Source: Longitalea luteola (lineage in GTDB: Bacteria > Bacteroidota > Bacteroidia > Chitinophagales > Chitinophagaceae). From it: a stretch of 64,000 nt of DNA. The notes below the pieces were generated by a model. The model was not told the DNA's origin and did no database searches. It was given only the letters and a program-made list of their open reading frames with translations. The stretch spans positions 62,001-126,000 of the forward strand of contig NZ_JAFIQX010000003.1 in the NCBI RefSeq assembly GCF_017356035.1, in the 5' to 3' direction. Made by a program: the position numbers and the translations under genes. Numbering within the stretch: position 1 is the stretch's first letter; each line of letters opens with the position of its first letter. Below are positions 1,222 to 60,716 of the stretch, piece by piece.

Positions 1222-1242
1222 GCTGAAGGCTGAAGGCTGAAT
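1222..1242. repeat. Heptamer word array (GCTGAAG x3)
   Basis: Three tandem copies of a 7-base word, gctgaag, gctgaag and gctgaat, start nine bases after the stop codon of the zinc protease. It is the shortest member of the intergenic word-array family described under findings and has no visible inverted partner arm. Confidence 0.6.
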
Positions 1243-1371
1243 TCGAGCGGCGCAAGGTACTTAATGCCAGGCATTTAAAGTGATAACAAAGACAAGGTTG
1301 AAAATTAAAAACATTCGATACTAAACCAGACCAGGTTTTTAAGTTGCCCATTTCCTTTAGGGATAGGGGGT

Positions 1372-1406
1372 ACCCCGTTCGCCGGCTGGCAGACGGGGTT
1401 TTTTTA
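1372..1406 (+). terminator. Rho-independent terminator of the zinc protease gene
   Basis: A 7-base perfect stem (accccgt at 1372-1378, acggggt at 1393-1399) is followed by a run of eight T residues. It lies about 160 bases after the stop codon and points rightward, matching the protease gene. Confidence 0.8.
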
Positions 1407-1652
1407 TTGCTGTTGGCACTTTACTGTAAGAACATTAAGTGGTTATGGAAAAAAGTAAGGCGTTAAAACAGGGCAGAATGAGTGGCGCTCAAGGTAATTT
1501 GGGGTTTTTGGCTGCACACTTATTGGCAATAACTACACGGTTATTGGCAAAACTGCGCACTTACCAATTTTTACTTTGCCGTATGTGTTTTAAAAATAAT
1601 TTTGACTCGTCTGATTCACTTTTTTCCCTACGCCTTTCTGGTTTTATATTAC

Positions 1653-1681
1653 GATCGGGCAATTTCTTGCCCGATCCTTTT
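1653..1681 (+). terminator. Orphan terminator hairpin
   Basis: A 10-base perfect stem (gatcgggcaa and ttgcccgatc) with the loop tttc is followed by CTTTTT. The shape is that of a strong intrinsic terminator on the plus strand, yet no recognised gene lies between the previous terminator at 1406 and this point. It suggests a short transcript in 1407-1650, possibly a small RNA. Confidence 0.65.
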
Positions 1682-1820
1682 TATCCTTTAGTCTACAGTC
1701 GCTATTTACCCAATCTAGAATTTTGCAATTTATACAGCAGTATGAGTAACGCGTCCGAACAGAATGTACGTTCTGAAAGGTACATTTCTTCGGATCTGTG
1801 CCCAACCTGCTCCAGGCCTG

Positions 1821-1895
1821 CTTCGGGATTTGTTCGGGATTTCCCGAAGAAATGCCGGCGTTTCCCCAAGGAAGACCCGAAGAAATCCCGAACAA
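1821..1895. repeat. Inverted-repeat block based on TTCGGGATTT
   Basis: A 14-base perfect inverted repeat (1830-1843 against 1882-1895) overlaps a second one of 8 bases (cttcggga 1821-1828 against tcccgaag 1842-1849). The segment can fold in two mutually exclusive ways. It gives open frames on both strands, which I regard as a by-product of the symmetry. Confidence 0.6.
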
Positions 1896-2129: not shown

Positions 2130-2312
2130 CACACCATTGGCCATTGGCCATTGAAAGACGAGCGAACCAGCCCGAGCCAACTCACCATTGGCCATTGAAA
2201 TACGAGCGAACCAGCCCGAGCCAACTCACCATTGGCCATTGACTGTTAAATGAATATTTGGTGGCCTAACCAGCGCGAGCCGATTCACCATTGACCATTC
2301 ACCATTCACCAT
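2130..2312. repeat. CCATTG word array with a 44-base tandem duplication
   Basis: The 7-base word CCATTGG/CCATTGA recurs through this stretch. Two 44-base units, 2153-2196 and 2197-2240, are identical except for one base; each carries a gaaccagcccgagcc segment plus CACCATTGGCCATT. A diverged third copy lies at 2269-2299, followed by simple heptamers (cattgac, cattcac, cattcac) that stop at the RNase G stop codon. The same CCATTGACCATT words appear in opposite orientation at 54.8 kb. Confidence 0.85.
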
Positions 2313-5838: not shown

Positions 5839-6915
5839 ATGAAACCTGATTTTACGCGTAGGTTATTACAATGGAACAAAAGCAGTAACAACAGAGCCAT
5901 GCCATGGAAAGGCGAGAAGGATCCGTATAAAATCTGGTTGAGCGAGATCATACTACAACAAACCAGAGTTGAACAGGGCTGGAGCTATTATGAAAAATTC
6001 ATTGCGGCTTTTCCAACCATAATGCATTTGGCCAAAGCCAGCGAAGAAAAGGTTTTTAAGATGTGGGAGGGGCTCGGTTACTATAGCCGTTGTAAAAACC
6101 TCATTGCTACTGCGCGTAAAATTGCCAGCGACTACAAAGGAAAATTTCCTGATACCTACGATGAGATAATAGCATTGCCTGGTATCGGCCCATATACAGC
6201 CTCAGCGATATCGTCCTTTGCGTTCAATGCACCACATGCTGTATTGGATGGTAATGTGCAACGCATCATTGCCCGTTACTTTGGCATTACAACACCTGTT
6301 GATACTACTGAGGGAAAGAAATTGTATCAAAACCTTGCCCAATCATTGTTGCATCGTGATGAGCCGGGGATCTATAACCAGGCCATTATGGATTTTGGCG
6401 CCGTCATTTGCAAGCCGCAGAATCCTTTATGCCAGGACTGCGTTCAACAAAAAGAATGTGAAGGGTTCAGGCAGAACATAGTTACACAGCTGCCCATAAA
6501 ACAAAAGGCTATCATCCGTAAAGAGCGTTGGTTCTATTACTTTATCATAGAATACAAAGGCAAATGGTATATAAAGCAAAGAACGGCTAAGGATATCTGG
6601 GAAAATTTGTTTGAGTTCGTTTTATATGAATCGCCCGCCGCCATGGACAACATATCGTTGAAATTACCCTTTCTGAAAAAACTTGTCAATGGGCGGCCCT
6701 GCCAGCTGGAAAGCATCAGCCGCCCCTACCGGCAACAGCTTACCCACCAAACGATCCATGGCCGGTTTGTTAAGATACAGGTCGGGGAAACATTACCCAC
6801 ATTAAGTGATTTCTTACTGATAGATAAAAAGCAATTATCAAAATATGCCTTCCCCCGGTTCATAACAACCTTTTTGGGCGAACCTGTGAGTTTGAAGTCG
6901 GAGTCTGAAGTCTGA
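5839..6915 (+). CDS. mutY: A/G-specific adenine DNA glycosylase MutY
   Basis: The 358-residue base-excision repair enzyme removes adenine mispaired with 8-oxoguanine. The catalytic Glu is about residue 36 (SEIILQQTRV), the helix-hairpin-helix is LPGIGPYTA at about 113-121, the catalytic Asp is about 137 in VLDGNV, and a 4Fe-4S loop has Cys191, 198, 201 and 207 (C-X6-C-X2-C-X5-C). A NUDIX-like 8-oxoG recognition domain fills the C-terminus. I choose the ATG at 5839 over an in-frame TTG two codons upstream. The last codons (LKSESEV) are formed by the heptamer word array that follows, so the tail seems to have been created by the repeat. Confidence 0.95.
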   Translation: MKPDFTRRLLQWNKSSNNRAMPWKGEKDPYKIWLSEIILQQTRVEQGWSYYEKFIAAFPTIMHLAKASEEKVFKMWEGLGYYSRCKNLIATARKIASDYKGKFPDTYDEIIALPGIGPYTASAISSFAFNAPHAVLDGNVQRIIARYFGITTPVDTTEGKKLYQNLAQSLLHRDEPGIYNQAIMDFGAVICKPQNPLCQDCVQQKECEGFRQNIVTQLPIKQKAIIRKERWFYYFIIEYKGKWYIKQRTAKDIWENLFEFVLYESPAAMDNISLKLPFLKKLVNGRPCQLESISRPYRQQLTHQTIHGRFVKIQVGETLPTLSDFLLIDKKQLSKYAFPRFITTFLGEPVSLKSESEV

Positions 6916-7091
6916 AATCTGAAGTCTGAAGTCTGAAGTCGGAAGTCCGAAATCGGGAGTCTGACGCCGGAGGTCCGAAATCGGAAGTCGGATAATGGAA
7001 ATAGAACATATATGGTAAGGCGTACGGGTACGCGAGGGCTAAAAGCCGCGTTCCATCTGACTTCTCATTTCCGGGTGCTGACTTCTGTCGG
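6894..7091. repeat. Heptamer array GAAGTCT/GAAGTCG with inverted second arm
   Basis: The left arm, 6894 to about 6990, is a run of gaagtct, gaagtcg, gaaatct and gaggtcc words of period 7. A shorter right arm at 7056-7091 carries reverse-complement words (tgacttctcatttcc, tgacttctg). The core contains a small perfect hairpin gcgtac-gg-gtacgc near 7019-7032. The array begins inside the mutY coding sequence, 22 bases before the end of its stop codon. Confidence 0.8.
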
Positions 7092-7820: not shown

Positions 7821-9173
7821 TTGGATAAGCCTTTGTTGATTTTTGGATCTGAGTATGTATTCAGGCTGCTGTTGATGGTGACCAACTATCAGGGTGCCAC
7901 CCTGGTGGGTGCTGCAGTGCTGGTTTTGTTATTGCTTTCCTTTTTTATCTCCGGAGCCGAAATGGCCTTTTTCTCGCTCACTTACCGGGATATTAACATG
8001 CTCAAGACCAAGCAGGACACTGGCTGGAAGCGGATCGCCACCCTGCTTGAAGAACCCAGGGCTTTACAGGCATCTTTGATGATCGCCAATACCCTGGTAA
8101 ACATTGCCGTGATCATACTCACCAATTTCTTTATTGACCAGATATTGATCATAAAACCCGGCAATTTTCAAATGTGGGTGGTGTATCTCATCAAACTACT
8201 CATCATTTCCTCACTGATCATCTTATTTGGCGAAATATTACCCAAAGTACGGGCCTCTCAGAACAACCTTCGCTCCGCCTACGAAGCATCCTTCCTGGTT
8301 GAAGTGATCTTTTACATGTTCAAACGGATCTCTGTTTGGTTGCTTAAGGTTTCCGATGGAGTTGAATCCTTACTCGGCGGCAAAGCCTCCAGGGCTTACA
8401 CGCACCAGCAACTGGAACAGGCCATCAAAAGCACCATACACGAAGAAGAGGAACAGCGCATCCTGGCCGGCATTTACAAATTCCCCAACATTACCGTAAA
8501 ACAGATCATGCGTACCCGCCTCGATGTGAACGGTATTGAGTACGAGGCCAATTTTCAAACCCTGAAAAGAAAGGTAGAAGAGTTGCACTATTCACGCCTG
8601 CCGGTATACCGTAAAAGCCTCGACGATATTGTTGGGATAGTGCATACAAAAGACCTGCTGTTATACCTGAATGAGCCCGATGATTTCGACTGGCATCTGG
8701 TTGTTCGGCCGCCGTTCTTTGTACATGAACAAAAACATATTGAAGACCTGCTGAAGGAATTTCAAACTAGGCATATACACTTTGCCGTAGTGGTTGACGA
8801 ATTTGGCGGCACCAGCGGAATTGTTACACTGGAAGATATCCTCGAAGAGATCATTGGCGATATCAGGGATGAATTCGACGACGAAGAGAGCGGCAGCAAG
8901 AAGATAGACGAGAATACTTACATTTTTGAAGGCCGCACCATGATCCACGATGCCTGCAAGATCATGAACCTGCAGGAAGATACGTTCGACCAGGTAAAAG
9001 GTGACAGCGATTCCATGGCCGGATTAATGCTCGAACTGGTAGGAGAGATACCGAAGGTAAACGACACTGCCAGCATAGGTGATTTTGATTTTGAAGCCCT
9101 TGAGGTAGACCGTAACCGAATCAGGAAAATAAAAGTGACCATCAATATAAGACAGGACAAGCAAGTGAGTTAA
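7821..9173 (+). CDS. gldE: Gliding motility-associated protein GldE (CNNM/CorC-type)
   Basis: The 450-residue membrane protein has a DUF21/CNNM transmembrane domain (about residues 25-190, with FFISGAEMAFFSL), two CBS domains (about 210-330, including the TRHIHFAVVVDEFGGTSGIV segment and LEDILEEIIGDI) and a C-terminal CorC/HlyC domain. In Flavobacterium GldE supports the gliding/type IX secretion machinery and acts with GldD, encoded next. The frame opens at 7809 and I take the TTG at 7821 as start (MDKPLLIFG); the alternative is ATG at 7875 (MVTNYQGATL). Family members starting MD favour the former. Confidence 0.9.
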   Translation: MDKPLLIFGSEYVFRLLLMVTNYQGATLVGAAVLVLLLLSFFISGAEMAFFSLTYRDINMLKTKQDTGWKRIATLLEEPRALQASLMIANTLVNIAVIILTNFFIDQILIIKPGNFQMWVVYLIKLLIISSLIILFGEILPKVRASQNNLRSAYEASFLVEVIFYMFKRISVWLLKVSDGVESLLGGKASRAYTHQQLEQAIKSTIHEEEEQRILAGIYKFPNITVKQIMRTRLDVNGIEYEANFQTLKRKVEELHYSRLPVYRKSLDDIVGIVHTKDLLLYLNEPDDFDWHLVVRPPFFVHEQKHIEDLLKEFQTRHIHFAVVVDEFGGTSGIVTLEDILEEIIGDIRDEFDDEESGSKKIDENTYIFEGRTMIHDACKIMNLQEDTFDQVKGDSDSMAGLMLELVGEIPKVNDTASIGDFDFEALEVDRNRIRKIKVTINIRQDKQVS

Positions 9174-9180
9174 CGAAGGA

Positions 9181-9251
9181 GTTACAAGTTACAGGTCACA
9201 GGTTACAGGGGTTCGAATGTCCCGGTCACCTGGAACTGCAACCTGGAAGCC
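9181..9251. repeat. Heptamer array GTTACAG with inverted arm
   Basis: The left arm 9181-9209 reads gttacaa, gttacag, gtcacag, gttacag with period 7. The right arm 9225-9251 has the inverted words cacctgg, aactgcaacctgg. The core is about 15 bases. It sits eight bases after the gldE stop and before gldD. Confidence 0.75.
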
Positions 9252-12203: not shown

Positions 12204-13532
12204 ATGCTACTTCTTTATACCCATACCACTACACCACGACTGCAATACATTGTTGATTTTATTGGTAAAGAATTATTTGATGAGGCGATAACCATCACAA
12301 ACGATGAGGTTTATTTCAAAGCATCAGAACGGCCACGCTTAAACTATTCCGCCCGTGCGTTTTCTGATAGCGAATTTTTCATCCGCTCTGCCACGTTGTT
12401 ATTTGAAACCGGCATTCACCCACAGTCTGTTGAATGTTTTGAGGTGAATTTTCACAAGGCTTTTTTTGAAACAGCCGGCGATTTTCCATTCGATGTTTTC
12501 GCTGCTTCATTTTACCTGTTAAGCAGGTACGAAGAATACCTGCCGCATTCAATAGATGAGTATGGCCGTTATGCGCATATCAATTCGCTGGCATACCGGG
12601 AACATTTTCTACAGCAGCCCCTGATCAATTACTGGCTGCAGTCTTTCAAAAAGGCCTTACAATTCAAATTTCCTGAACTTGTTTTCAGGCAAAGCCAGTT
12701 CAGGTGTTTGTTAACGTATGATATTGATATGGCCTGGTCGTACCTGCACAAAGGCTGGCTTCGAACCCTGGGTGGTTTTTATAATTCCATACGAAGAGGC
12801 GAGTGGGCAAAGGTTAAAGACAGGTGGCTGGTATTACGCGGCAAAAGAAAAGATCCCTTTGATTGTTTTGAATGGCTGGATGCCTGGCATTTGTACTGCC
12901 GGCTGAAACCGTATTTCTTTTTTCTGGCCGCCAAAAGAACTTCGCGGTACGATAAGAACAATTCCTGCGAAAAGAAGCCATTCCGCGACCTGATCACCTA
13001 TTATGCCAATACCTATCATTTGGGGGCGCACCCATCGTGGCAAAGCGGCGATGACCCCGCACTGTTGCAGGAAGAGCTGGAGTGGCTGGAGGTAGTGGGT
13101 GAAAGAAAGATCGTCTTTAGCCGCCAACATTATATACGCTTTTCCATGCCTGTTACCTATCGCCGGTTAATAGCAGCCGGTATAGAAAAAGATTTTTCCA
13201 TGGGTTATGGCAGTATAAACGGTTTCAGGGCTTCGGTATGCACTCCGTTTTACTGGTACGATCTGAAGAAGGAAGAAGCCACTTCATTGATGATCTATCC
13301 ATTCTGTTTTATGGATGCCAATTCCCTGTTTGAGCAAAAACAAAGCCCGCAACAGACCTACAACGAATTGATCCAGTACTATGAACGCGTAAAAGGCTGT
13401 AAAGGCGTATTTATACCTATCTGGCACAATTTCATCCTGGGCACCGATCCGGCATACGAAGGGTGGCGGAAAATGTTTGAATTGTTTATGAAAGAGACCG
13501 TATACTGGGATGCGTATAATGATGAGGCATAA
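12204..13532 (+). CDS. Polysaccharide deacetylase-like (NodB-fold) protein
   Basis: The 442-residue protein matches the long Bacteroidota polysaccharide deacetylase family. An N-terminal region of about 160 residues precedes the NodB-like part, which starts at LLTYDIDMAWSY with the metal-binding Asp pair. GAHPSW (about residue 275) supplies the histidine, and a later PIWHNFILG is also family-typical. It presumably acts on an envelope glycan or exported polysaccharide. An in-frame TTG at 12192 lies only four bases from the lutB terminator, so the ATG at 12204 (MLLLYTHTTTP) is preferred. Confidence 0.75.
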   Translation: MLLLYTHTTTPRLQYIVDFIGKELFDEAITITNDEVYFKASERPRLNYSARAFSDSEFFIRSATLLFETGIHPQSVECFEVNFHKAFFETAGDFPFDVFAASFYLLSRYEEYLPHSIDEYGRYAHINSLAYREHFLQQPLINYWLQSFKKALQFKFPELVFRQSQFRCLLTYDIDMAWSYLHKGWLRTLGGFYNSIRRGEWAKVKDRWLVLRGKRKDPFDCFEWLDAWHLYCRLKPYFFFLAAKRTSRYDKNNSCEKKPFRDLITYYANTYHLGAHPSWQSGDDPALLQEELEWLEVVGERKIVFSRQHYIRFSMPVTYRRLIAAGIEKDFSMGYGSINGFRASVCTPFYWYDLKKEEATSLMIYPFCFMDANSLFEQKQSPQQTYNELIQYYERVKGCKGVFIPIWHNFILGTDPAYEGWRKMFELFMKETVYWDAYNDEA

Positions 13533-13643
13533 CGCTAAACGCAGAACGCTGAATACAAAACACTGAACCGGTAACTGGATATCTGTAACCGGTAACAGGT
13601 TACCGGGCTAGTACCCTGTAACCTGCAACCTGTAACCTGCAAC
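13531..13643. repeat. Heptamer arrays AACGCTG and GTAACCTGCAACCT, inverted arms
   Basis: A short array of aacgct words (13531-13552) is followed by ggtaactg, gtaaccg, gtaacag words and, after the core gggctagtaccc, the inverted words gtaacct, gcaacct, gtaacct, gcaac with period 7. It fills the convergent space between the deacetylase gene and purH. Confidence 0.8.
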
Positions 13644-13648
13644 ATAAA

Positions 13649-20018: not shown

Positions 20019-20675
20019 ATGACGGTTAATAAAAACATACAGGTAGCAGTTGCTGATGATCATACTTTACTTCGAAACGCGCTGGCGCGTTTGATCAACT
20101 CGTTTGAAGGATATAAAGTGTTGTTTGAAGCCAGTAACGGGCAGGAAGTTAAGGAAAAGCTCAACAAGCATGTAATACCCGATATTATTCTGCTGGATGT
20201 AAATATGCCCGATATCGACGGTTATGAAACAGCCAAATGGATCTACAAGACCTTTCCGCAGGTAAAGATACTGGCCCTTTCCATGTTCAGCGACGAGAAT
20301 ATCATTATTCGCATGCTGCGCCTGGGCGCCAAAGGATATATAATGAAAAACGCCGAGCCCGAAGAGTTGAAAATGGCGCTGGATTCCGTATTGCACAAGG
20401 ACTTCTATCTTTCTGAATTAATATCCGGCAAGATCATCAGCGGCCTGCATAAAGACATGGATAAACCGAACGAACCTGTTCACCTTACCGAAAAGGAGAA
20501 AGAATTCCTGAAATGGGTTTGTACGGAATTAACTTATAAGGATATCGCTGCCAAAATGTTTGTAAGCCCCCGTACTGTAGATGATTACCGCAACTCCCTG
20601 TTTGAAAAGCTGGGCGTGAAAACGCGGGTTGGACTGGTAATATACGCGATCAAACACAGCATGGTTGAAATATAG
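20019..20675 (+). CDS. Response regulator, NarL/FixJ family
   Basis: The 218-residue regulator has an N-terminal receiver domain with acidic pocket DDHT and phospho-accepting Asp in IILLDVNMPDIDGY (about residue 60), the conserved Lys in YIMKNAEPEE, and a C-terminal LuxR-type helix-turn-helix (LTEKEKEFLKWVCTELTYKD, then SPRTVDDYRNSLFEKLG). It is expected to be phosphorylated by the kinase just upstream and to activate unknown promoters. A shared convergent terminator follows. Confidence 0.93.
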   Translation: MTVNKNIQVAVADDHTLLRNALARLINSFEGYKVLFEASNGQEVKEKLNKHVIPDIILLDVNMPDIDGYETAKWIYKTFPQVKILALSMFSDENIIIRMLRLGAKGYIMKNAEPEELKMALDSVLHKDFYLSELISGKIISGLHKDMDKPNEPVHLTEKEKEFLKWVCTELTYKDIAAKMFVSPRTVDDYRNSLFEKLGVKTRVGLVIYAIKHSMVEI

Positions 20676-20690
20676 GGGGTGTTCAACAAG

Positions 20691-20820
20691 TTAACTGTTC
20701 AACTCGTTAACTCGTCAACCATTTACCACAGCATTCAAAAATAAAAAGGGAGATAAGGTTTATTACCGTATCTCCCTTTTACTCGTTAACTGTTCAACTG
20801 GTTAACTCGTCAACTATTTA
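20691..20820. repeat. 35-base direct repeats of GTTAACT words flanking a terminator
   Basis: Copies at 20691-20725 and 20786-20820 agree at 33 of 35 bases and consist of words such as ttaactg, ttcaact, cgttaact, cgtcaac. Between them is the convergent terminator 20744-20780. The right copy includes the stop codon and last codon of carB. Confidence 0.85.
20744..20780. terminator. Convergent terminator for the response regulator and carB
   Basis: Arms aaaagggagata and tatctccctttt form a 12-base perfect stem with A and T flanks, able to act in both directions between two converging genes. Confidence 0.85.
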
Positions 20821-23779: not shown

Positions 23780-24038
23780 AAGAAGCCGAAAGCCGGAACT
23801 GGGCAGTCAGAAGCCGGAGGCCGGAATCCTGCAGATTGGATCTTGTAGTTGAGATGCCGCTGGACGGACAAATGAGTCAGAATGAGCCAGAAAGGAATTG
23901 TCGTTAGTACGTTTTTTGTGGTCAGAAGGTGGAGGTCGGAGGTCCGAAGTGCGGAGGCCAGAAGTCAGAAGCTAATTTTAAAAATTGACTTTTCAGACCT
24001 CAGACTTCATACTTCAGATTTCAGAATTCAGAATTCAG
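23780..24038. repeat. GAAGCCG/GAAGTCG word arrays, one with inverted arms
   Basis: A first run of gaagccg, aaagccgg, cagaagccgg words lies at 23780-23829. The second unit has a left arm at 23921-23971 (ggaggtcgg, aggtccg, aagtgcgg, aggccag, aagtcag), a core ctaattttaaaaattg, and a right arm at about 23987-24038 of reverse-complement words (cagacct, cagactt, catactt, cagattt, cagaatt). The transcript would fold into one long imperfect hairpin. Confidence 0.8.
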
Positions 24039-24040
24039 TA

Positions 24041-24100: not shown

Positions 24101-24316
24101 TCAGTTGTTGTGAAAAGCGGCTAACTCAATGTCATCAAGTGCAACGCCACCGCCCCGTACCAGTTTTTTTTGTTCGGCCATCAGCCGTTTTTCATCAAAA
24201 CGACTTTTGATACGGAAAACCCATTTTTGTTTAGCTTCATTTCCACGAAAGATGCCTACTATCGTGCCGATCGACAGAGCCAATACCAGTATCATCTTAT
24301 TCCTAAGCGTTTTCAT
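24101..24316 (-). CDS. Small membrane-anchored protein
   Basis: The 71-residue protein has an N-terminal hydrophobic helix (about residues 8-24, MILVLALSIGTIVGIF) and a basic, helical remainder (KQKWVFRIKSRFDEKRLMAE). I do not recognise a family. Support for a real gene comes from the correctly placed minus-strand terminator, the signal-anchor pattern and an isolated position upstream of carB. Function is unknown. Confidence 0.6.
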   Translation of the reverse strand: MKTLRNKMILVLALSIGTIVGIFRGNEAKQKWVFRIKSRFDEKRLMAEQKKLVRGGGVALDDIELAAFHNN

Positions 24317-26394: not shown

Positions 26395-26506
26395 TGCCCT
26401 GACCGGACCGGTCGGAATAAGTTATGCGCTTTGTTGTCAGAACCGGGGTTTCCGCAGAAAGACCCGGTCTTGTTTTATGTGTCGCGATCGTCGCATTGGC
26501 ATTTTA

Positions 26507-26524
26507 GCAAATTAGCTAATTTGC
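26507..26524. promoter_or_regulatory. Perfect 18-base palindrome before bcp
   Basis: GCAAATTAGCTAATTTGC is fully self-complementary and ends five bases before the bcp ATG. It could be an operator covering the transcription start. It could also be a relic of the ATTAGC/AATTTG word arrays, since ATTAGCTAAT recurs at 31.7 and 43.0 kb. Confidence 0.4.
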
Positions 26525-31688: not shown

Positions 31689-31717
31689 TATGATAACCCC
31701 GCAGCGCGGGACAAGTT

Positions 31718-31850
31718 GTGATAATTAGCTAATGTGATAAAAAAGGTCTTTCATAGAAAGGCCTTTTTTATTCATTATCAGTTCCGATTTTTCAGTGCCA
31801 TTGTTTCTGTTATCGAGTTATCACATTTTCAAATTATCGAATTACGAATT
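31718..31850. repeat. Octamer words around the convergent DUF5777/birA terminator
   Basis: The left arm 31718-31740 (gataattagctaatgtgataa) and right arm 31811-31850 (tatcgag, ttatcaca, ttttcaaa, ttatcgaa, ttacgaa) are inverted versions of GATAATGT-type words with period 8. Between them is the terminator 31739-31769. The right arm covers the birA stop codon and its last codons. Confidence 0.75.
31739..31769. terminator. Convergent terminator DUF5777/birA
   Basis: Arms aaaaaaggtcttt and aaaggcctttttt pair over 13 bases with one G-U pair around a 5-base loop, and have A and T flanks usable in both directions. Confidence 0.85.
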
Positions 31851-35389: not shown

Positions 35390-36025
35390 ATGAATGTTTC
35401 TCCGGCTAAAGAAAATATTTTTAAAAAAATAAGAAAGGCGTTGGGTAACCCAACGCCTCTCCCTTTTCCACAAAGCGAAGGCAGCGATTCTGTATATCAG
35501 CCTTCAACCCAGGATCTGGGCCTTGAATTTGCCCAGCGCTTTACCAATCTTCAGGGCAAATTTGTTTTTTGCGAGAACTACAAAGAGCTGGCAAGCCAGC
35601 TGAACAAGGTTGTTGCAGCCAACAAGTGGGACAAGGTTTACTGCAAAGAAGAAGGCCTGCGCAAAACCCTGGCAGAAAATCAATTCAACAATTACTCCTA
35701 CAACGACCTGTCAACCTGTGATACCGCTATCACCAGCTGCGAATGGCTGGTAGCCCGCACTGGTAGTATTGTTATGTCGGCTGCCCAGGAAAGCGGCCGT
35801 ACAGTAAGTGTATATGCACCTGTGCACATATGCATTGCCCATACCAGTCAGCTGGTGTACGATGTAAAGGATGCATTAGCAAGTGCCAGGGAAAAATACG
35901 CTGGTAATCTTCCTTCGTTGATCACATTTGCAACGGGTCCGAGCCGCACCGCCGATATTGAAAAAATGCTGGTCGTGGGAGTGCATGGTCCTAAAGAAGT
36001 ATACGTATTTCTGGTTGATCAATAA
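35390..36025 (+). CDS. lutC: LUD domain protein (LutC-like)
   Basis: The 211-residue protein has a single LUD domain with CEWLVARTGSIVMS and the TAVSVYAPVHICIAH-type segment GRTVSVYAPVHICIAHTSQ, ending with GPSRTADIEKMLVVGVHGPK, which is typical of LutC. It should act with LutB in lactate oxidation, though LutB is encoded 23 kb away. Being four bases after ftsH it must be co-transcribed with it; the ftsH-LUD pair is common in Bacteroidota, so a separate role tied to ftsH cannot be excluded. Confidence 0.85.
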   Translation: MNVSPAKENIFKKIRKALGNPTPLPFPQSEGSDSVYQPSTQDLGLEFAQRFTNLQGKFVFCENYKELASQLNKVVAANKWDKVYCKEEGLRKTLAENQFNNYSYNDLSTCDTAITSCEWLVARTGSIVMSAAQESGRTVSVYAPVHICIAHTSQLVYDVKDALASAREKYAGNLPSLITFATGPSRTADIEKMLVVGVHGPKEVYVFLVDQ

Positions 36026-36142
36026 TCGGCAATCGGCAATCGACAAGAATTTTGGGGCGCAGGATCAGCCATTTATTTCGAACGTCGGAAGCTATTCACG
36101 ACCTGCCAGTCGGCAGGCTGGTTGACGATTCACGATTCACGA
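36023..36142. repeat. Heptamer arrays AATCGGC and ACGATTC
   Basis: The words aatcggc, aatcggc, aatcgac follow the lutC stop directly (36023-36044), and cgattcacgattcacga ends the spacer (36125-36142). Between them is a hairpin cctgcc-agtc-ggcagg near 36102-36117. Confidence 0.65.
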
Positions 36143-36152: not shown

Positions 36153-36578
36153 ATGCAACCTAACATTTACCGGCTATTTGTTTATGGCTCGCTCAGAAGT
36201 GGGCTGCTGAACCCCATTTTATCTCATATAACCCGGTATTTTGTGCTTGATGGAATGGGCGCCATTCAAGGCAACCTGTACGATATGGGCCAGTATCCGG
36301 GCGCGGTTCCCTGTACAGAAGACCATTTGATCATCGGCGAAGTATACCATATTGCAAACATCGAAGAGTTTGACCAGGCAATGGAAGTGATCGATGATTA
36401 TGAAGGCCTGATCGTTGAACCAGGCGAAGTGCCTTTATTCAGGAGGGAACCGGTTCATGTATTATTCAAGAACAGCACTGTTGTTGCTTGGATGTATTGG
36501 TATAACCGACCGATCACCAACCGGCCCCGTATTGAATCGGGCGATTTCGTAGCTTATAAGATGGGAATAGGGAAATAA
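36153..36578 (+). CDS. Gamma-glutamylcyclotransferase family protein
   Basis: The 141-residue protein has the GGCT-like fold with the substrate loop FVYGSLRSGLLNP at residues 9-21 and the catalytic acid in EVIDDYEG. Related enzymes cyclise gamma-glutamyl amines or dipeptides to 5-oxoproline. The substrate is not predictable from sequence. It lies between lutC and lpxH, rightward, and is separated from lutC by word repeats. Confidence 0.88.
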   Translation: MQPNIYRLFVYGSLRSGLLNPILSHITRYFVLDGMGAIQGNLYDMGQYPGAVPCTEDHLIIGEVYHIANIEEFDQAMEVIDDYEGLIVEPGEVPLFRREPVHVLFKNSTVVAWMYWYNRPITNRPRIESGDFVAYKMGIGK

Positions 36579-36697
36579 TGTGCTGATGTGCTAATTTGCC
36601 AATGAAACACAAACAGCACTCGGAAAGCAGGTTTTAAACCATGTAACCTGAGGCCGGTAACGTACCCAAAAGAACCGAAAACGAAGAACTTAAGAAA

Positions 36698-43011: not shown

Positions 43012-43200
43012 TAATTAGCTAATTCGATAATGTGCTAATGGAAATCATAATTGATTTTTATTAGCACATTCCATTTAATGGGCATTCACTATTCAGGCGA
43101 TTGTAACTACTATGTAATTATCCGAACTTACCTCGATGTTGATCGGAATTATCACATTTCAATTCGCATCTTAGCACATTATCACATTGGCAAATTGGAT
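43012..43200. repeat. Octamer words TAATGTGC, inverted arms after gyrB
   Basis: The left arm 43012-43039 (taattagc, taattcga, taatgtgc, taatgg) pairs with inverted words at 43060-43070 (attagcacatt; 11-base perfect stem with 43029-43039) and again at about 43149-43200 (ttatcaca, ttagcaca, ttatcaca, ttggcaaa). The stem probably acts as the gyrB terminator. Confidence 0.75.
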
Positions 43201-47916: not shown

Positions 47917-47948
47917 GTAAAAATCAGGTTTGCGGCAAAGGTAAGGCT

Positions 47949-48106
47949 AATTCGATAATGTGATAATTTGATAATTCGATAAGGGAATACGGCTCACGAC
48001 GTGAAGGCTGACCGTTCCCTGGCTTACTGTTTACAGATCATACCAATAACAGCGCTTCCTGGACGGAAGCATTATCACATCATCAAATTATCAAATTATC
48101 ACATTA
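47949..48106. repeat. Inverted octamer arrays GATAATTT/ATTATCAA around a 90-base core
   Basis: The left arm 47949-47983 reads aattcgataatgtgataatt and on with period 8. The right arm 48071-48106 has the reverse-complement words attatcaca, tcatcaaa, ttatcaaa, ttatcaca. The core of about 87 bases is not repetitive. It is a clear long imperfect inverted repeat between divergent genes. Confidence 0.85.
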
Positions 48107-48116
48107 ACTTTGGTCT

Positions 48117-48461
48117 ATGCAGGCAAATGACGATTTACAAACCCGGTGGTGGAAACTGGAGGAAAAACTGATGGAGCGGTTTGGCAAAAAACCAGACATG
48201 GAAACCATTTTGTTTTTAATAGGCATACAGGAATTTGGCGACATCAAGGCCAGGTTTACCAAAGAACAGAAGCAGGACCTGATGCATGTGGCTACCTGTA
48301 GTTTACTGGCGCAAAGCGGCTACTATGAAATGGAACGGGTAGATGAAGAAGGCTGGCCTCATTTCAGGCAGTTGAAAGCTTTGCCCGTAATGTCGCTTCC
48401 CGAACAGGAGAATTTTTTAAAAGACCATATTCTTTTGTATTTTGATCAGCAGGAATTCTAA
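48117..48461 (+). CDS. Conserved hypothetical protein
   Basis: The 114-residue soluble protein is helical and acidic (WWKLEEKLMERFGKKPDMET, FLIGIQEFGDIKARFTKEQK, HVATCSLLAQSGYYEMERVD). I recall uncharacterised Bacteroidota proteins of this type but no function. It starts with ATG just 10 bases after one word-array unit and ends seven bases before another, so its promoter and 3' end are both embedded in repeats. Confidence 0.78.
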   Translation: MQANDDLQTRWWKLEEKLMERFGKKPDMETILFLIGIQEFGDIKARFTKEQKQDLMHVATCSLLAQSGYYEMERVDEEGWPHFRQLKALPVMSLPEQENFLKDHILLYFDQQEF

Positions 48462-48467
48462 AACCAA

Positions 48468-48550
48468 TTTGATAATTTGAAAATATGATAATTTGATATA
48501 CCTCATCGCGGCTATTCTGTGGTTCATTATCAAATTATCACATCATCACA
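48468..48550. repeat. Second GATAATTT inverted unit, 26-base core
   Basis: The left arm 48468-48499 (gataattt, gaaaatat, gataattt, gata) and right arm 48526-48550 (attatcaa, attatcac, atcatcac) are inverted copies of the same words used at 47.95-48.1 kb. It lies between the hypothetical gene and the cyclophilin gene. Confidence 0.85.
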
Positions 48551-48574
48551 TTTGTCTGATATTATCTTATAACT

Positions 48575-49270: not shown

Positions 49271-49315
49271 AAGTTGACAAGTTGATCAGTTAACTTGATA
49301 ACTGGTTAACTTATT
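49271..49315. repeat. Octamer words AAGTTGAC/GTTAACTT
   Basis: aagttgac, aagttgat, cagttaac, ttgataac, tggttaac follow one another with period 8 between the cyclophilin gene and gcvH. The second half is partly inverted relative to the first. Confidence 0.7.
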
Positions 49316-49356
49316 AAACTTAAATTTCTTAATCTTGCAGCTCTAAATTTCAAAAC

Positions 49357-51200: not shown

Positions 51201-51225
51201 CGGTGCGCTTTCTAAACTTAAACCC

Positions 51226-51253
51226 TTCAACCTTGTAACCTGTAACCTGCAGC
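51226..51253. repeat. Short heptamer array CTTGTAAC/CTGTAAC
   Basis: cttcaac, cttgtaac, ctgtaac, ctgcagc follow the anti-sigma stop codon; these are the same words as at 13.6 kb. Confidence 0.65.
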
Positions 51254-53603: not shown

Positions 53604-54800
53604 ATGAATTACAGAAAGTTCCAGGCCGATCATTTATTTACTGGTTTTGAATGGTTATCAAACGATTCGGTTTTGATTACCGGTGCCGATGGGAAAATAA
53701 TCGACATAGTGCCTGCCGCCGATGCAGGGGAGGGCATTGCCCGCTTTAGCGGCATCCTAAGTCCGGGTTTCATAAACTGCCACTGCCACCTGGAACTGAG
53801 CCACCTGAAAGGCGTTATTCCTGAGAACACCGGCATGGTTGATTTTTTGGTGCGGGTTATTCAGCAACGCGGATTTGACGAATCCATCATTAAAGAGGCT
53901 ATTGCCCAGGGGGAGGACAGCATGCTGCAGAACGGCATAGTGGCGGTAGGGGATATATGCAATACAGCTTATACAATTGACCAGAAAAAAAGAGGCCGCC
54001 TGTTGTATCATAATTTCATTGAGACCATGGGTTTTATTGAAAGCACGGCAATGCAGCGGTTCGAAGCCTCCAGGGCTATTTACGACCAGTTTGCCCGCCT
54101 CTACAGAACACCGGCAGCTTCCAATTCCATCGTGCCACACGCCCCTTATTCCGTTTCAGCAGCATTATTTCAGCTGATCACGCGCTTTCCGGGCAACAAC
54201 CTGCTAACCATTCACAACCAGGAAAGCGTTGCTGAAAGAGAGTTTATCGAAAAAGGCACCGGCGATCTTCACCGGTTATACAAGGCGCTGAATATAGACA
54301 TCTCCTTTTATAAGCCAGGTTCCACAGGCAGCCTGGGAGCTTATCTTTCGCATTTTTTGCCCAATCAATCGCTGATCCTGGTGCACAATACAAACACCAA
54401 TGAAAGCGACCTCAAATATATCGCCCAAAGCCCTGCGCCGGCGGGGTCGTTCGGGAAGGCATTGCACTTTGCCAGTTTGTTCTTCTGTCTCTGTCCCAAT
54501 GCGAATGCATATATCGGCAATCCTTTACCGGATATTGACCTGTTACGGCAATACAAAGCGGCTCTTGTAATTGGAACTGATAGCCTGGCATCGAATCACC
54601 AGTTAAGTGTGCTGGCTGAACTGCAAACCATTAACCGGCATTTTCCGCATATTGCCATCAGCGAACTGTTGCAATGGGCTACACTGAATGGCGCCCGCGC
54701 CCTGCAGCTGGATGATGTTGTGGGAAGTTTTGAGCAGGGAAAAAAACCGGGGGTGCTTGTTGTAAGTGAGGAGCTGTCTACTGTTGAAAGATTGATATGA
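53604..54800 (+). CDS. Amidohydrolase family protein (aminodeoxyfutalosine deaminase-like)
   Basis: The 398-residue metal-dependent hydrolase has the barrel motif LSPGFINCHCHLELSHLKG with the HxH metal pair, VPHAPYSVS, LLTIHNQES, LVHNTNTN and the catalytic Asp in GTDSLASN. The NCHCHLELSHLKG sequence resembles the 6-aminodeoxyfutalosine deaminases of the futalosine menaquinone pathway, but no other mqn gene is in view, so this specificity is tentative. It is rightward, converging with recO. Confidence 0.8.
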   Translation: MNYRKFQADHLFTGFEWLSNDSVLITGADGKIIDIVPAADAGEGIARFSGILSPGFINCHCHLELSHLKGVIPENTGMVDFLVRVIQQRGFDESIIKEAIAQGEDSMLQNGIVAVGDICNTAYTIDQKKRGRLLYHNFIETMGFIESTAMQRFEASRAIYDQFARLYRTPAASNSIVPHAPYSVSAALFQLITRFPGNNLLTIHNQESVAEREFIEKGTGDLHRLYKALNIDISFYKPGSTGSLGAYLSHFLPNQSLILVHNTNTNESDLKYIAQSPAPAGSFGKALHFASLFFCLCPNANAYIGNPLPDIDLLRQYKAALVIGTDSLASNHQLSVLAELQTINRHFPHIAISELLQWATLNGARALQLDDVVGSFEQGKKPGVLVVSEELSTVERLI

Positions 54801-54801
54801 A

Positions 54802-54924
54802 ATGGTGAGTGGTGAATGGTCAATGGTGAATGGTCAATGATGAATGGTCAATGGTGAATGGTCAATTTTTTCTCAAAAGCGTGTATTTCATTATCACATT
54901 ATCACATTGTCAAATTATCACATT
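54802..54924. repeat. ATGGTCA/ATGGTGA heptamers plus ATTATCACA octamers
   Basis: 54802-54866 is an array of atggtga, gtggtga, atggtca words with period 7, the complement of the CCATTGAC words at 2.3 kb. 54890-54924 is an ATTATCACATTATCACATTG array with period 8 that runs into the recO stop codon. Confidence 0.85.
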
Positions 54925-55663
54925 AACCCAGCACCTCCTGCAGAACCGGCAACGTTTTCATCAACCCAAAGTCCTGGATGTGCAGGGCATAATACATTTG
55001 GTAGGCATGTAGAAGTGTGCGGCGGGTTTCCTGGTTTAATTTTATCTGCGTCAGCTCGTCCGGCTGCATCACTTTCAGTAATTGGGAAGTGATATAGCTG
55101 TAAGGATAGGATAAGAAATGGGGATGAACCGGGTGCTCATGTACGAATTCACCTTCCTGCAGATCGAAGAAAGGTGTTTCTTCCGTGTACCGGTCGGTAA
55201 AGCGGAAACCATAGAACGAAGCCAGGTGCAGGGCGAAGTACAAGGGGAAATTGCCCACCACCTGTTCATCCGCTTTATCGAGATGCATAAACGCATCTTC
55301 TGCGAAATAAAAAAGCTCCGGATTGGATTCGGGTTGTTTCAATGTTTTTGACAACAGCTCAACCATGAACAACGCTACCGAATTCTTAACCACATCGAAA
55401 AAGATATGCTGGTATAAATAGCTCCATTTGAACTCGCGCAGGCGTTGCAGGTGGTGCAGGTCATTATGATAAGCTACCAGCTCCAGGATGGCGCCTGGCT
55501 GAAACAGGTTGGCTTTACCGCTTCCTTTTTTTGAAGAAGTTCTAACGCCGTTCACTATGTACGACTGTATGCCAAACAGCTCTGTGAAAATGCTGACGAT
55601 CACGCTGGTTTCGCCATATTTCACTGTTCGTAATACAATGCCTTTTGTTAAATGGAGCGTCAT
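54923..55663 (-). CDS. recO: DNA repair protein RecO
   Basis: The 246-residue RecFOR-pathway protein loads RecA onto SSB-coated DNA. The N-terminal OB fold begins MTLHLTKGIVLRTVKYGETS with GVRTSSKKGSGKANLFQPGA; a helical C-terminal domain follows without the zinc cysteines of some RecO proteins. Its ATG overlaps the porZ stop (ATGA), so it is translationally coupled to porZ, an arrangement seen widely in Bacteroidota. Confidence 0.93.
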   Translation of the reverse strand: MTLHLTKGIVLRTVKYGETSVIVSIFTELFGIQSYIVNGVRTSSKKGSGKANLFQPGAILELVAYHNDLHHLQRLREFKWSYLYQHIFFDVVKNSVALFMVELLSKTLKQPESNPELFYFAEDAFMHLDKADEQVVGNFPLYFALHLASFYGFRFTDRYTEETPFFDLQEGEFVHEHPVHPHFLSYPYSYITSQLLKVMQPDELTQIKLNQETRRTLLHAYQMYYALHIQDFGLMKTLPVLQEVLG

Positions 55664-57969: not shown

Positions 57970-58274
57970 AGGTAATTATATGTGGTTGACCTGCCGCTTA
58001 TTAAAAATATGTTGCACCTGATACTAAACCATAAGTAAAAAACGTACTAGAGAGCTGAAAAAGAGAAATAATATTACGAAAATATAATTTCCTAATTCAT
58101 TGGCATTAAAACTTTGTTAGACGCTTTCTATAGCGGCAAATAAACTTCCTTAATCCTGCTAAATTGAGTTTCTTTGCGGCCAGGAATCAAGGTAGATGCG
58201 CCAGAGCATTGGGCTTTGGAGCTTTTATAGTGATTTGGTATTTGTTATTTGAGATTTAATATTCGATATATCTT
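57970..58274. other. 305-base divergent spacer
   Basis: Between porZ and the exporter gene. It holds the ATTTGGT heptamer array (58233-58267) just before the exporter start and no other recognisable element; the promoters must lie here. Confidence 0.5.
58233..58267. repeat. Heptamer array ATTTGGT/ATTTGTT
   Basis: Five consecutive 7-base words, atttggt, atttgtt, atttgag, atttaat, attcgat, end seven bases before the ATG of the exporter gene, making this one of the few arrays placed in a likely 5' leader. Confidence 0.75.
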
Positions 58275-60626
58275 ATGTGGGAAAAAATCGCCCGGTTCAT
58301 TTTACGGTCTCGCTGGACACTGTTGATCATCTTACTGGCCCTTACCGGTGTAATGGGCTATCACGCATCGAAAGTACAGATGAGCTATGAATTTGCAAGA
58401 GCTATTCCAACCGATAATCCCAAATATCAGGCCTATCAGGCATTCCGCAGCCAGTTCGGTGAAGATGGTAATCTGATGGCCATAGGCGTTACGACACCCG
58501 ATCTGTTCAAGGCTGAAGTATTTAATGATTATGCCGCCCTGGCCAAACAGATAAGAGGAGTCACAGCAGTAGAAGATGTATTGAGCGTACCTGCCGCTAC
58601 CAACCTCGTGAAAGATTTCGCCAATGAAAAGCTGAATGCAGTGCCGGTCTTTGCCAGCCGGCCCCTCACTCAACCGGAGCTGGATAGCATGACTGCTGTT
58701 TTCTTCAGTCTGCCTTTTTACAAAGGCTTGTTATATAATCCGGCTACCAATACCTACATGATGGGTATCCGCATCAATAAAGAAGTATTGAATTCGAAAC
58801 GCAGAAATGATGTAGTGGCGAAAATTGTGGAAACAGCCGATGCTTTCGGGCGTAAGCACAATATCGAAATGCATTACAGCGGACTGCCCCTGATACGCAC
58901 CAACCTGGCTACCAAGGTAGCTGCCGAGATGCAATGGTTCCTGTTAGGCTCAATTATTTTGTCGGCCATTATCTTACTGGCCTTCTTCCGCAGCTTCAGC
59001 GCTACTGCCATTTCGCTGGCCGTTGTAATTATCGGCGTGATCTGGTGTATGGGTACCATTGAATGGATGGGCTACAAAATTACCCTGCTTACGGGTGTAA
59101 TTCCTCCGCTGATCGTTGTGATCGGAATTCCCAACTGTATTTACTTCCTCAACAAATATCACACAGCTTATAACGATGTCAATGGGCAGGTGTTTGCCGG
59201 TACCAGCAGAAAGCGGATTGCATTAACCGCTATGATCAGCCGCATGGGTGTAGTAACACTCTTCTGTAATATTGCGGCGGCCATCGGTTTTGCAGTGTTT
59301 GGCCTTACCAAAAGTGAAGTGCTGAAAGAATTCGGGATAGTAGCAGGTATCAACATCATGGCCCTGTTCTTTATCTCGATCATGTTCATTCCGGCCGTGT
59401 TGAGCTTTTTACCTGATCCCAAGAAAAGACATACCCGTTACCTGGAAAATAAATGGCTGCTCGCTATTTTGGATAACCTCGAACGCTGGTCGTTGCATCA
59501 TCAAAAGCTGATTTACGGAATAACAGCCGTGATACTGGTAGCATCGGTGGCCGGCATGTTCAAATTGAAATCAGTTGGTTTTATTGTAGATGATCTGCCA
59601 AAGACGGATAAGATCTATAAAGACCTGAAATATTTCGAAGCGAATTTCCGCGGTGTAATGCCACTGGAAATAGTGGTGGATACCAAACAAAAGCAGGGAC
59701 TACGCCGTAATCCGGTGCAAACCTTTGCCCGCATCGATTCCCTGTCGCAGTTTATTGCCGCACAACCTGAAATGGCCCGGCCGCTCTCGATCGTAGAGGG
59801 GTTGAAATTCGCCCGCCAGGCTTATTACAACGGCGATAGCAGCAATTACCAGGTGCCCAATGAAGGCGATCTTCTCTTTTTGTCGCAATACCTCAGCGCA
59901 AAAGCATCAACAGACAGCAATGGTAAACAAAACAACTTTACACGCATTGTAAGCTCTTTTATGGATAGCAACCGCCGGCTGGCGCGTATCAGTGTTAATA
60001 TGGCCGATGTAGGCAGCAAACGCCTGCCCGAACTTATCAGCACTATTGAAGACCGCAGCCGCCAGTTGTTCGATACTTCCAGATACCATGTTGAATTCAC
60101 CGGCACCAGCGTTACCTTCCTTGAAGGCAGTGCATTCATTATAAACGGACTGAAGGAAAGTATTATGTGGGCCTTCCTGCTGATCGCCCTTTGTATGTTA
60201 TACCTGTTCAGGTCATTTAAGATCCTGATATGTTCGCTCATACCGAATATTATTCCGCTTATTATCACGGCTGGTGTTATGGGCTGGACGGGTGTACCCA
60301 TAAAACCATCAACCGTACTCGTGTTTTCAGTGGCTTTAGGCATCGCAATAGATATAACCATCAGGTTCCTCGTAAATTATAAACAGGAACTTTCCTTAAA
60401 TAGTAAAAAGACCTCACATGAACTGGTAATCGATACCATTCATAAAACAGGTATTAGTATCATTTATACCTCATTGACCCTCATTGCGGGTTTTGTAATA
60501 TTCTGCTTTAGCGGCTTCGGCGGTACACAGGCGTTAGGTTGGCTTACTTCGCTTACCCTCGTGCTGGCAACGTTAACGAACCTCATCTTTTTACCGGCAT
60601 TGTTGCTCACGATGATAAAAAAATAG
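58275..60626 (+). CDS. RND/MMPL-family exporter
   Basis: The 783-residue inner-membrane protein has two six-helix halves with sterol-sensing-like segments (IILSAIILLAFFRSFSATAI, then GIPNCIYFLNKYH; second half MLYLFRSFKILICSLIPNII and SVALGIAIDITIRFLVNY) separated by two periplasmic domains. This is the MMPL/RND layout for export of lipids or hydrophobic compounds using the proton gradient. No fusion protein or outer-membrane factor is adjacent, so it resembles the stand-alone lipid transporters. The substrate is unknown. Confidence 0.88.
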   Translation: MWEKIARFILRSRWTLLIILLALTGVMGYHASKVQMSYEFARAIPTDNPKYQAYQAFRSQFGEDGNLMAIGVTTPDLFKAEVFNDYAALAKQIRGVTAVEDVLSVPAATNLVKDFANEKLNAVPVFASRPLTQPELDSMTAVFFSLPFYKGLLYNPATNTYMMGIRINKEVLNSKRRNDVVAKIVETADAFGRKHNIEMHYSGLPLIRTNLATKVAAEMQWFLLGSIILSAIILLAFFRSFSATAISLAVVIIGVIWCMGTIEWMGYKITLLTGVIPPLIVVIGIPNCIYFLNKYHTAYNDVNGQVFAGTSRKRIALTAMISRMGVVTLFCNIAAAIGFAVFGLTKSEVLKEFGIVAGINIMALFFISIMFIPAVLSFLPDPKKRHTRYLENKWLLAILDNLERWSLHHQKLIYGITAVILVASVAGMFKLKSVGFIVDDLPKTDKIYKDLKYFEANFRGVMPLEIVVDTKQKQGLRRNPVQTFARIDSLSQFIAAQPEMARPLSIVEGLKFARQAYYNGDSSNYQVPNEGDLLFLSQYLSAKASTDSNGKQNNFTRIVSSFMDSNRRLARISVNMADVGSKRLPELISTIEDRSRQLFDTSRYHVEFTGTSVTFLEGSAFIINGLKESIMWAFLLIALCMLYLFRSFKILICSLIPNIIPLIITAGVMGWTGVPIKPSTVLVFSVALGIAIDITIRFLVNYKQELSLNSKKTSHELVIDTIHKTGISIIYTSLTLIAGFVIFCFSGFGGTQALGWLTSLTLVLATLTNLIFLPALLLTMIKK

Positions 60627-60669
60627 CAGCGTACGGTAAAAAAATCAAGTTATCGTGTGTGCTTTTAGT

Positions 60670-60677
60670 TATATTTG
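60670..60677 (+). promoter_or_regulatory. -7 box before susC
   Basis: TATATTTG matches TAnnTTTG, 61 bases before the ATG. The leader that follows contains two copies of TGACAAGTTG. A -33 TTTG is not present at the standard distance. Confidence 0.4.
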
Positions 60678-60681
60678 ATTA

Positions 60682-60716
60682 CTTGACAAGTTGGCCGCCC
60701 AGCCTGACAAGTTGAA
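60682..60716. repeat. TGACAAGTTG duplicated in the susC leader
   Basis: cttgacaagttgg and cctgacaagttga are separated by a GC-rich 8-base stretch (ccgcccag). The word is shared with the array at 49.27 kb, and the pair would form a hairpin in the 5' leader. Confidence 0.6.

Follow-up and report, generated by a model that had tools for sequence, protein, structure and literature searches.

Intergenic arrays of many 7- and 8-nucleotide words with a common strand polarity in Longitalea luteola

Intergenic heptamer repeats in bacteria

Repetitive extragenic palindromic (REP) sequences and bacterial interspersed mosaic elements (BIMEs) are inverted pairs of palindromes, which are located between genes and often behind them. 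Another class are the short tandemly repeated repetitive (STRR) sequences of cyanobacteria, whose heptamers were reportedly described by Mazel in 1990. The subject here is a family of arrays of degenerate 7- or 8-nucleotide words found in a window of 64,000 nucleotides of Longitalea luteola (contig NZ_JAFIQX010000003.1, positions 62,001 to 126,000) and in related genomes. These arrays are the known heptamer class of the STRR and GGGAATC type in a many-word, word-switching form, and they often stand as two inverted arms, the 5' one of which is nearly always G-rich.

According to the accessible part of PMC2670836, cyanobacterial STRR consist of 7-bp tandem units between genes, can form hairpins and have no known function. 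The accessible text of PMC4692102 describes degenerate GGGAATC and GGGGA(C/T)T heptamers of Xanthomonas and Nostoc, which are intergenic, mostly present in four copies and seldom located between divergent genes; the next 5' open reading frame (ORF) is 28 nt away and the downstream ORF 160 nt. Xanthomonas carries 70 and 75 convergent pairs with one member on each strand, Nostoc only a few paired repeats, and variation in length and sequence between species is reported. The same text refers to a proposal made earlier, by which slippage of the polymerase favours heptamers, and it cites three kinds of STRR for Calothrix. In the part of PMC4679880 consulted, TAACTGA direct repeats are reported from intergenic regions of Beggiatoaceae, cyanobacteria and five Bacteroidetes, some of them beside other heptamers; in the BOGUAY genome most of them directly precede starts and have one orientation, with a single indirect repeat. 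Heptamer arrays have thus been reported from several phyla, and their origin and function are not settled in the literature found, as far as it was accessible.

Strength and location of the period

The window belongs to a 7.3 Mb genome of 43 contigs (G000) and was analysed together with 400 kb from each of two other contigs, which gives 864 kb or around 12% of the genome. Genes were called with an own script based on codon usage, and their starts are approximate. The intergenic test set comprised 535 gaps (146 kb), with 716 kb of coding sequence as control and 20 dinucleotide-preserving shuffles as null. In the gaps, the mean match at lag 7 lies 30.9 standard deviations (SD) and that at lag 8 13.6 SD above the shuffles; deviations at several other lags reach 5 SD at most, and the one at lag 15 is 7.5 SD. 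The gaps hold 76 local arrays at lag 7 and 40 at lag 8, the shuffles none at either lag, and the coding sequence one at lag 7 and none at lag 8. A census of the whole 864 kb, for which a slightly looser threshold was used than for the shuffle comparison, revealed 138 arrays at lag 7 and 61 at lag 8, while the control lags 4, 5, 6, 9, 10, 11, 12, 13 and 15 gave 2, 1, 7, 3, 1, 5, 4, 4 and 8. An earlier note on this DNA, made from the letters alone, had described gene-free arrays with a strict period of 7 or 8 and a changing word and had proposed lag autocorrelation as the check; the arrays are present at the sites it named, and the signal is far above the level of shuffled sequence. At the far end of the range it gave, at 60.7 kb, no array is visible in the printed sequence.

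Only 3 of 189 arrays lie mostly within called genes, which is the intergenic location of the STRR class; the 7-bp tandem units (here 7 or 8) and the several kinds of repeat dispersed in one genome are further features of this class. Arrays occur in 107 of the 535 gaps and are short, with a median of 4.6 units. They are densest in convergent gaps (37 in 19.5 kb), followed by co-directional (127 in 85 kb) and divergent gaps (24 in 39 kb), and they lie within 5 bp of a 3' end in 33 of 201 cases and within 5 bp of a 5' end in 6 of 175. A frequent layout is a stop codon, an array, a core, an inverted array of the same word and the next gene. If 16 or more of 21 matches at lag 7 or 8 are required, 16 of the 44 window gaps of at least 40 bp hold an array; the site at 31.8 kb stays below this threshold, yet it is present in the Tandem Repeats Finder (TRF) list.

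The period is found beyond the genus as well. Named Bacteroidota loci (80 loci, 1.47 Mb) contain 40 intergenic arrays at lag 7 and 22 at lag 8, compared with 1 to 8 at lags 4 to 6 and 9 to 13, and 26 of the 80 loci have arrays. Two plasmids of the cyanobacterium Trichormus variabilis (400 kb) contain 16 arrays at lag 7 and 2 at lag 8, with 5, 0, 6, 7, 2 and 6 at lags 4, 5, 6, 9, 10 and 11; 13 of the arrays are intergenic, and four have a one-sided mate (5' arms: one G-rich, one C-rich; 3' arms: two G-rich).

Inverted arms and strand polarity

An inverted mate in its own gap was found for 78 of 183 arrays and a direct mate for 59 of 183, with 3.2% expected for each from other gaps; reverse-complement arms around a mostly unique core, which the earlier note had pointed out, are therefore a real feature. 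The polarity of the arms was scored with one hairpin per gap. In G000 the 5' arm is G-rich in 44 hairpins, C-rich in 3 and equal in 5 (p = 2e-10), and since the measure is identical on both DNA strands, this G-first rule is independent of gene direction. G-first hairpins also outnumber C-first hairpins in the congeners G001 (22 versus 4) and G008 (6 versus 0) and in G071, a member of another genus of the same family (8 versus 1). The named Bacteroidota, whose words are other than those of G000, have 15 G-first, 2 C-first and 2 equal hairpins (19 hairpins in 14 of the 80 loci). As a control, inverted repeats in array-free gaps have a G-rich 5' arm in 15 cases, a C-rich one in 22 and a neutral one in 12, compared with 27, 2 and 2 in array-bearing gaps. 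GC skew after stops is -0.026 in array-free and +0.143 in array gaps, and before starts it is -0.092 and -0.208, respectively.

The orientation of arrays with the same word follows the gene boundaries, although the pairs counted are not independent of each other. Two arrays near 3' ends have the same sense in 51 pairs and opposite senses in 5, and two arrays near co-directional starts in 25 and 0; an array near a 3' end and one near a co-directional start agree in 1 pair and oppose each other in 59, and a 3' end compared with a divergent gap gives 5 and 25. The strand that is read inward from either gene boundary is hence identical. One-sided hairpin arms in divergent gaps keep this polarity (left arms: 4 G-rich, 1 C-rich; right arms: 7 C-rich, 1 G-rich). 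Arrays lacking a mate are G-rich when read inward in 47 co-directional cases versus 19 that are not, and in 17 versus 5 convergent cases; among the few mateless arrays of divergent gaps (3 G-rich versus 5) the rule is not seen. Stop codons on the sense strand, considered as the sole cause of the polarity, do prevail near 3' ends (32 versus 14 of 51, within 10 bp); this explanation is incomplete, because hairpins in divergent gaps are G-first too. Many words under a common strand rule hint at one way of making arrays. As the G-first rule extends across words, Bacteroidota lineages and gene directions, it limits the mechanisms that come into question and lends itself to a test by orientation.

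The repeat vocabulary

The 128 heptamer arrays reduce to 64 consensus words and the 60 octamer arrays to 25. Words recur strongly, with 181 same-word heptamer pairs versus 15 expected and 136 octamer pairs versus 2.4 when letters are shuffled within words, which contradicts the idea that each site has a word of its own. Within the window, GATAAT/GCTAAT words are located at 26.5, 31.8, 36.6, 43.0, 43.2, 47.9, 48.1, 48.5 and 54.9 kb, GTTACAG words at 9.2, 13.6 and 51.2 kb, and AATGGTS words at 2.3 and 54.8 kb. One 66-bp array of the window has matches in at least 18 of 39 searched genomes, including all ten of the genus, and at least 25 matches in G000. The genus comparison covers ten genomes including G000, one per species, with G001 to G005 and G008 as congeners. 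A word of G000 is shared by 57 of 96 arrays in G001 (5.7 expected), by 7 of 14 in G008 (0.5 expected) and by 12 of 40 in G071 (2.7 expected). A vocabulary common to all Bacteroidota was rejected, as only 3 of 67 arrays of more distant Bacteroidota share a word of G000 and 2.4 are expected; the word stock looks lineage-specific.

Three further observations concern the words. L151, a metagenome-assembled genome (MAG) of Draconibacterium orientale from a different Bacteroidota lineage, contains a long octamer array of GATGATGTGCTAATGTG, whose words closely resemble those of G000. A run of around 600 bp of AATGGTS-like matches with regular offsets of 35 bp forms a higher-order repeat in G008 (C13, 317847-318472). 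A mini-hairpin CCCG...CGGGACAAGTTGTG with a varying loop recurs within GATAAT/GCTAAT arrays, at 31696-31721 of the window and in several gaps of G001 and G002.

Arrays of the window

The arrays and facing words of the window are as follows (coordinates, strand, description):

1212..1241, +, AAGGCTG/AACGCTG heptamer array, beginning at the stop of the gene that ends at 1213
2134..2312, -, CCATTGG/ATTCACC heptamer words and a 44-bp composite tandem (2141-2242), abutting the 3' end of a - strand gene (2312)
6889..6989, +, long array of GAAGTCT heptamers that overlaps the stop of a MutY-like gene (ends at 6915)
7053..7091, -, CTGACTTCT, words inverted relative to the array at 6.9 kb and facing it, read by eye
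9180..9209, +, GTTACAG array just past the stop at 9173
9224..9246, -, inverted mate CCTGGAACTGCAACCTGG of the 9.2 kb array, read by eye
13530..13553, +, degenerate AACGCTG words at the stop at 13532, read by eye
13611..13645, -, GTAACCTGCAACCT array, abutting the 3' end of purH (13649, - strand)
20676..20719, +, GTTAACTG/TTCAACTC octamer array following the stop at 20675
20781..20815, +, second GTTAAC octamer arm, on the far side of a terminator-like hairpin conserved in G001
23921..23971, +, degenerate GTCAGAAG/GGAGGTC words, partner of the array at 23993..24040
23993..24040, -, TTCAGAC heptamer array, close to the 3' end of the - strand gene at 24101
26496..26524, -, GCAAATTAGCTAATTTGC octamer array
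31810..31850, -, TTATCGAA octamer array spanning the 3' end of the gene at 31834 (-), with a terminator-like hairpin upstream
36016..36046, +, AATCGGC heptamer array at the stop at 36025
36122..36141, -, inverted mate TTGACGATTCACGATTCACG of the 36.0 kb array, read by eye
36576..36603, +, TAATGTGCTGATGTGC octamer array at the stop at 36578
43012..43040, +, GCTAATGTG octamer array, forming a stem with downstream ATTAGCACATT
43171..43198, -, inverted arm TTAGCACATTATCACATTGGC
47946..47982, +, octamer array of GATAATTT, forming the left arm in a divergent gap
48070..48108, -, octamer array of ATTATCAC, forming the right arm
48466..48498, +, GATAATTT array following the stop at 48461
48526..48551, -, ATTATCAC array, right arm
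49289..49317, +, GTTAACTTG octamer array
51222..51251, -, CAACCTTGTAACCTGTAACC array
54801..54866, +, AATGGTG/AATGGTC array, its first base directly after the stop at 54800
54889..54927, -, CATTATCA octamer array, abutting the 3' end of recO (54923, -), with a word unlike that of its neighbour
58233..58263, +, degenerate array of ATTTGGTATTTGTTATTTGAG between divergent genes, conserved in G001

The MutY-like gene ends within an array word (GTCTGA), and its counterparts in four congeners end in TTGTTTTAA; the last codons of this gene and its stop seem to come from the array at 6889-6989. The genes of the window are of Bacteroidota type and include those for the gliding lipoprotein GldD and FtsH as well as purH, carB, serS and prfA, and the best named relatives of the release factor are records from Niabella, Chitinophaga and similar bacteria, so a cyanobacterial setting, the comparison drawn in the earlier note, is not supported. 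A release factor that is 76% identical to that of G000 is found in L126, a record titled as a MAG of Azovibrio restrictus, a title that is probably wrong.

Turnover between species

Among 204 orthologous gaps of G000 and G001, 34 have arrays in both species, 27 in G000 only, 11 in G001 only and 132 in neither; one of the 27 gaps with an array only in G000 is empty in G001. Of the 34 array-array gaps, 26 reach the word-similarity threshold (16% expected by random pairing) and 8 do not, although the 36.0 kb pair among the latter may still consist of related words. Where both species have arrays, the gaps are longer (median 282 versus 114 bp); the association persists for gaps of at least 100 bp in both species (29 with arrays in both, 16 and 6 in one only, 63 in neither) and is therefore not merely a matter of gap length. 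Density also varies by species, with 22 arrays in the 64-kb window and 3 in 80 kb of G005; from the latter it follows that most arrays are dispensable.

At 54.8 kb, the word has been replaced: G000 carries AATGGTS, G001 GTTACCGG, and G002 and G003 carry GTTATTAAG words. In a convergent gap on contig 11, GTTTGTGG arms of G000 stand opposite CCGGTTACC arms of G001. Words that differ at some orthologous sites fit the single, word-independent generating process that the earlier note had put forward. When 18 cores were aligned with the G001 gap, the three with both arms well matched aligned over 0.95-0.99 of their length and the six for which neither arm was found over 0.05-0.38; the values of nine intermediate ones were 0.26-0.92. 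Arms and core thus tend to share one fate, be it retention or loss. At 20.7 kb, a terminator-like hairpin, which is also present in G001, lies between the two arms. At 43.0 kb, the word itself forms the stem, and a T run then follows in five congeners and not in the window; one two-sided change, from GTGCTAATG to GTGCAAATG and its partner, is found in G002 and G003, a weak covariation with small counts that are reached by 37 of 500 shuffles. The genus offers natural replicates, in which one gap can be followed across sister species that have kept its word, carry a different one or lack an array.

Cores and arms

The core between two arms has a median length of 70 bp. Forty-three masked cores gave 9 matches, 6 of them to one GCCTGCC palindrome common to several word families; six cores searched in the whole genome are all single copy, with one further match at an E value of 0.17, and of 31 cores compared with the sampled sequence, 5 have a non-self match, 3 of these in G001. 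A palindrome of 20-22 bp, CCTGCCTGCCGGCAGGCAGG(TT), recurs exactly inside hairpins of different words, for example at around 134.4 kb of C22 and 213.9 kb of C11 in G000, and looks like a separate small repeat.

The partner arm of the same hairpin matches best in 9 of 49 cases (around 14% expected) and beats the mean of the others in 30 of 49; the similarity is 0.657 for own pairs and 0.607 to same-word arms of other hairpins. Exact templating of one arm on the other was therefore rejected as a general rule, although a site in G004, where the arms look like exact reverse complements over 27 bp when read by eye, goes against this rejection. The order of unit variants is shared between sites over 17.02 nt, compared with 16.57 nt after shuffling (SD of the null means 0.07). 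Together, the results for arms, cores and order imply that the word is mostly common and the text is not.

Whole-element copying was likewise rejected as a rule, given the mostly unrelated cores and the six single-copy ones. The gap at 54.8 kb, used as a 161-bp query, has 47 genomic matches, nearly all of which end at array edges. Dispersed copies of one conserved mobile repeat, the outcome that would have spoken against the earlier note, are not what was found, since cores are mostly unrelated and unit order is hardly shared; nor, apart from a composite in L002, a second place in the genome, do the arrays have the conserved body and ends of miniature inverted-repeat transposable elements (MITEs) or other mobile elements, target-site duplications not having been looked at. 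In this composite, the pair of AATGGTS and TTATCAC words with its spacer ends at the array edges and has possibly moved as one piece.

Possible origins of the arrays

The best explanation, held tentatively and at slightly less than an even chance, is that the arrays belong to the STRR class and arise by slippage and template switching from a lineage-specific stock of words. Errors of DNA synthesis would place them between genes as direct arrays, which often make up the two arms of an imperfect hairpin, with repeated slippage of 7-8 nt where the polymerase meets a hairpin or an end-of-gene structure. Template switching between the arms might then leave the word in both arms and not the order of its variants. 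The strand asymmetry of triplet repeats is explained by the looping or extension of one strand, and looping or extension of the G-rich strand in the same manner would lead one to expect the G-first rule; an array would thereby grow inward from the gene boundary, the G-rich strand leading. Arrays would be nearly neutral and survive where they harm no promoter or coding sequence, chiefly behind stop codons. Strict unit length, arms that match at the level of the word, mostly unrelated cores and rapid turnover together favour a local error of synthesis over the copying of an element.

Several observations weigh against this explanation. Slippage alone leaves unexplained why the same word recurs at dozens of sites. 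Unit similarity shows no inner-outer gradient along the arrays (110 versus 110), so that a growing end is invisible and directional growth within arrays was rejected. The inward strand is predicted to fold as DNA more stably than its complement in 145 arrays, less stably in 73 and equally in 106, an asymmetry that partly restates G richness itself. Some sites, such as the 43.0 kb stem, look constrained, which would mean selection, and two cyanobacterial hairpins, too little to judge by, have no clear G-first pattern. Finally, a match in L002 (1501-1620) spans the two arrays of the 54.8 kb gap and the spacer between them (window, 54801-54927; 81% over 120 bp), and together with order sharing above the shuffled level this implies that some copying does occur.

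The first alternative is that the arrays are selected RNA hairpins, which end transcription, protect mRNA or block read-through and whose word is free as long as the arms pair. The position of many arrays directly behind stops and their density in convergent gaps would suit such a role, 41 of 47 folded hairpins reach z < -2 (in a set preselected for inverted arms), and the stem at 43.0 kb has its T run in five congeners and its two-sided change. General intrinsic terminators were rejected, however, as there is no excess of T runs, with 4.0 T in the 12 nt after the 3' arm of 47 hairpins, and at 43.0 kb the window itself has no T run and the covariation is weak. Mates are at least as common in divergent gaps (15 of 24) as elsewhere (73 of 164), one-sided arms in these gaps keep the same polarity, and arrays are gained or lost between sister species. 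RNA hairpins are accordingly unlikely as a general rule by the tests made; an RNA function is possible at some sites.

Decayed copies of a mobile or dispersed element of the MITE or REP/BIME type are improbable. The recurrence of word families throughout the genome and in sister genomes would be expected of such copies, and inverted arms and placement resemble those of BIMEs; because of the L002 composite, this alternative was given slightly more weight and slippage with template switching slightly less. Against these points stand the many unrelated words with one anatomy, the matches of the 54.8 kb gap, nearly all of which stop at an array edge, the mostly unrelated cores, and the unit orders that sites hardly have in common.

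It is similarly doubtful that a putative terminal transferase or reverse transcriptase-like enzyme adds templated G-rich words of 7-8 nt to 3' ends in a telomerase-like manner. By acting on both sides of a break or gap, such an enzyme would produce facing G-first arms independent of gene direction, and arms that match in word and not in order, a strict unit length and a lineage-specific word stock would be its natural products; the cores between the arms, however, would need a separate source, the core at 20.7 kb is a terminator-like hairpin that G001 also has, and a search of the window against Rfam at gathering scores gave no match. Least probable of all is the broad version, in which one word-independent, telomerase-like activity, widespread in Bacteroidota and perhaps other phyla, writes and overwrites hairpins behind genes with a changing lineage vocabulary; if true, it would add G-rich 7-8 nt words to 3' ends that face each other across intergenic gaps.

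Comparison with known systems

The earlier note had held that word-changing arrays in inverted arms are not described as a system. This holds only in part: the accessible text of PMC4692102 reports, for Xanthomonas, inverted pairs of a single heptamer in convergent orientation. In the openly accessible literature, no report was found of this form, of word replacement in two arms or of a word-independent G-first rule.

The closest relatives are the GGGAATC arrays of Xanthomonas, whose convergent pairs with one member on each strand are taken to be G-first facing arms of a single word, as in the 44 G-first versus 3 C-first hairpins described here. Unlike in Xanthomonas and Nostoc, where the accessible part of PMC4692102 follows one word per genome, dozens of words are found here, and word replacement, not met in that part of the paper, is seen. 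There is also no GGGANTN word with quadruplex-forming G tracts; typical words are GATAATTT, AATGGTS and GTTACAG. The arrays differ from cyanobacterial STRR in their phylum and in the additional period of 8, and the G-first order is not clearly kept in the few cyanobacterial hairpins. The TAACTGA repeats of PMC4679880 have, in the text consulted, one favoured exact word, in contrast to the many words and facing arms described here. Like REP sequences and BIMEs, the arrays form intergenic inverted pairs, often behind genes; unlike these, for which the associated RAYT genes were not searched, they have no common palindromic consensus, and instead their words differ by family and their cores by site.

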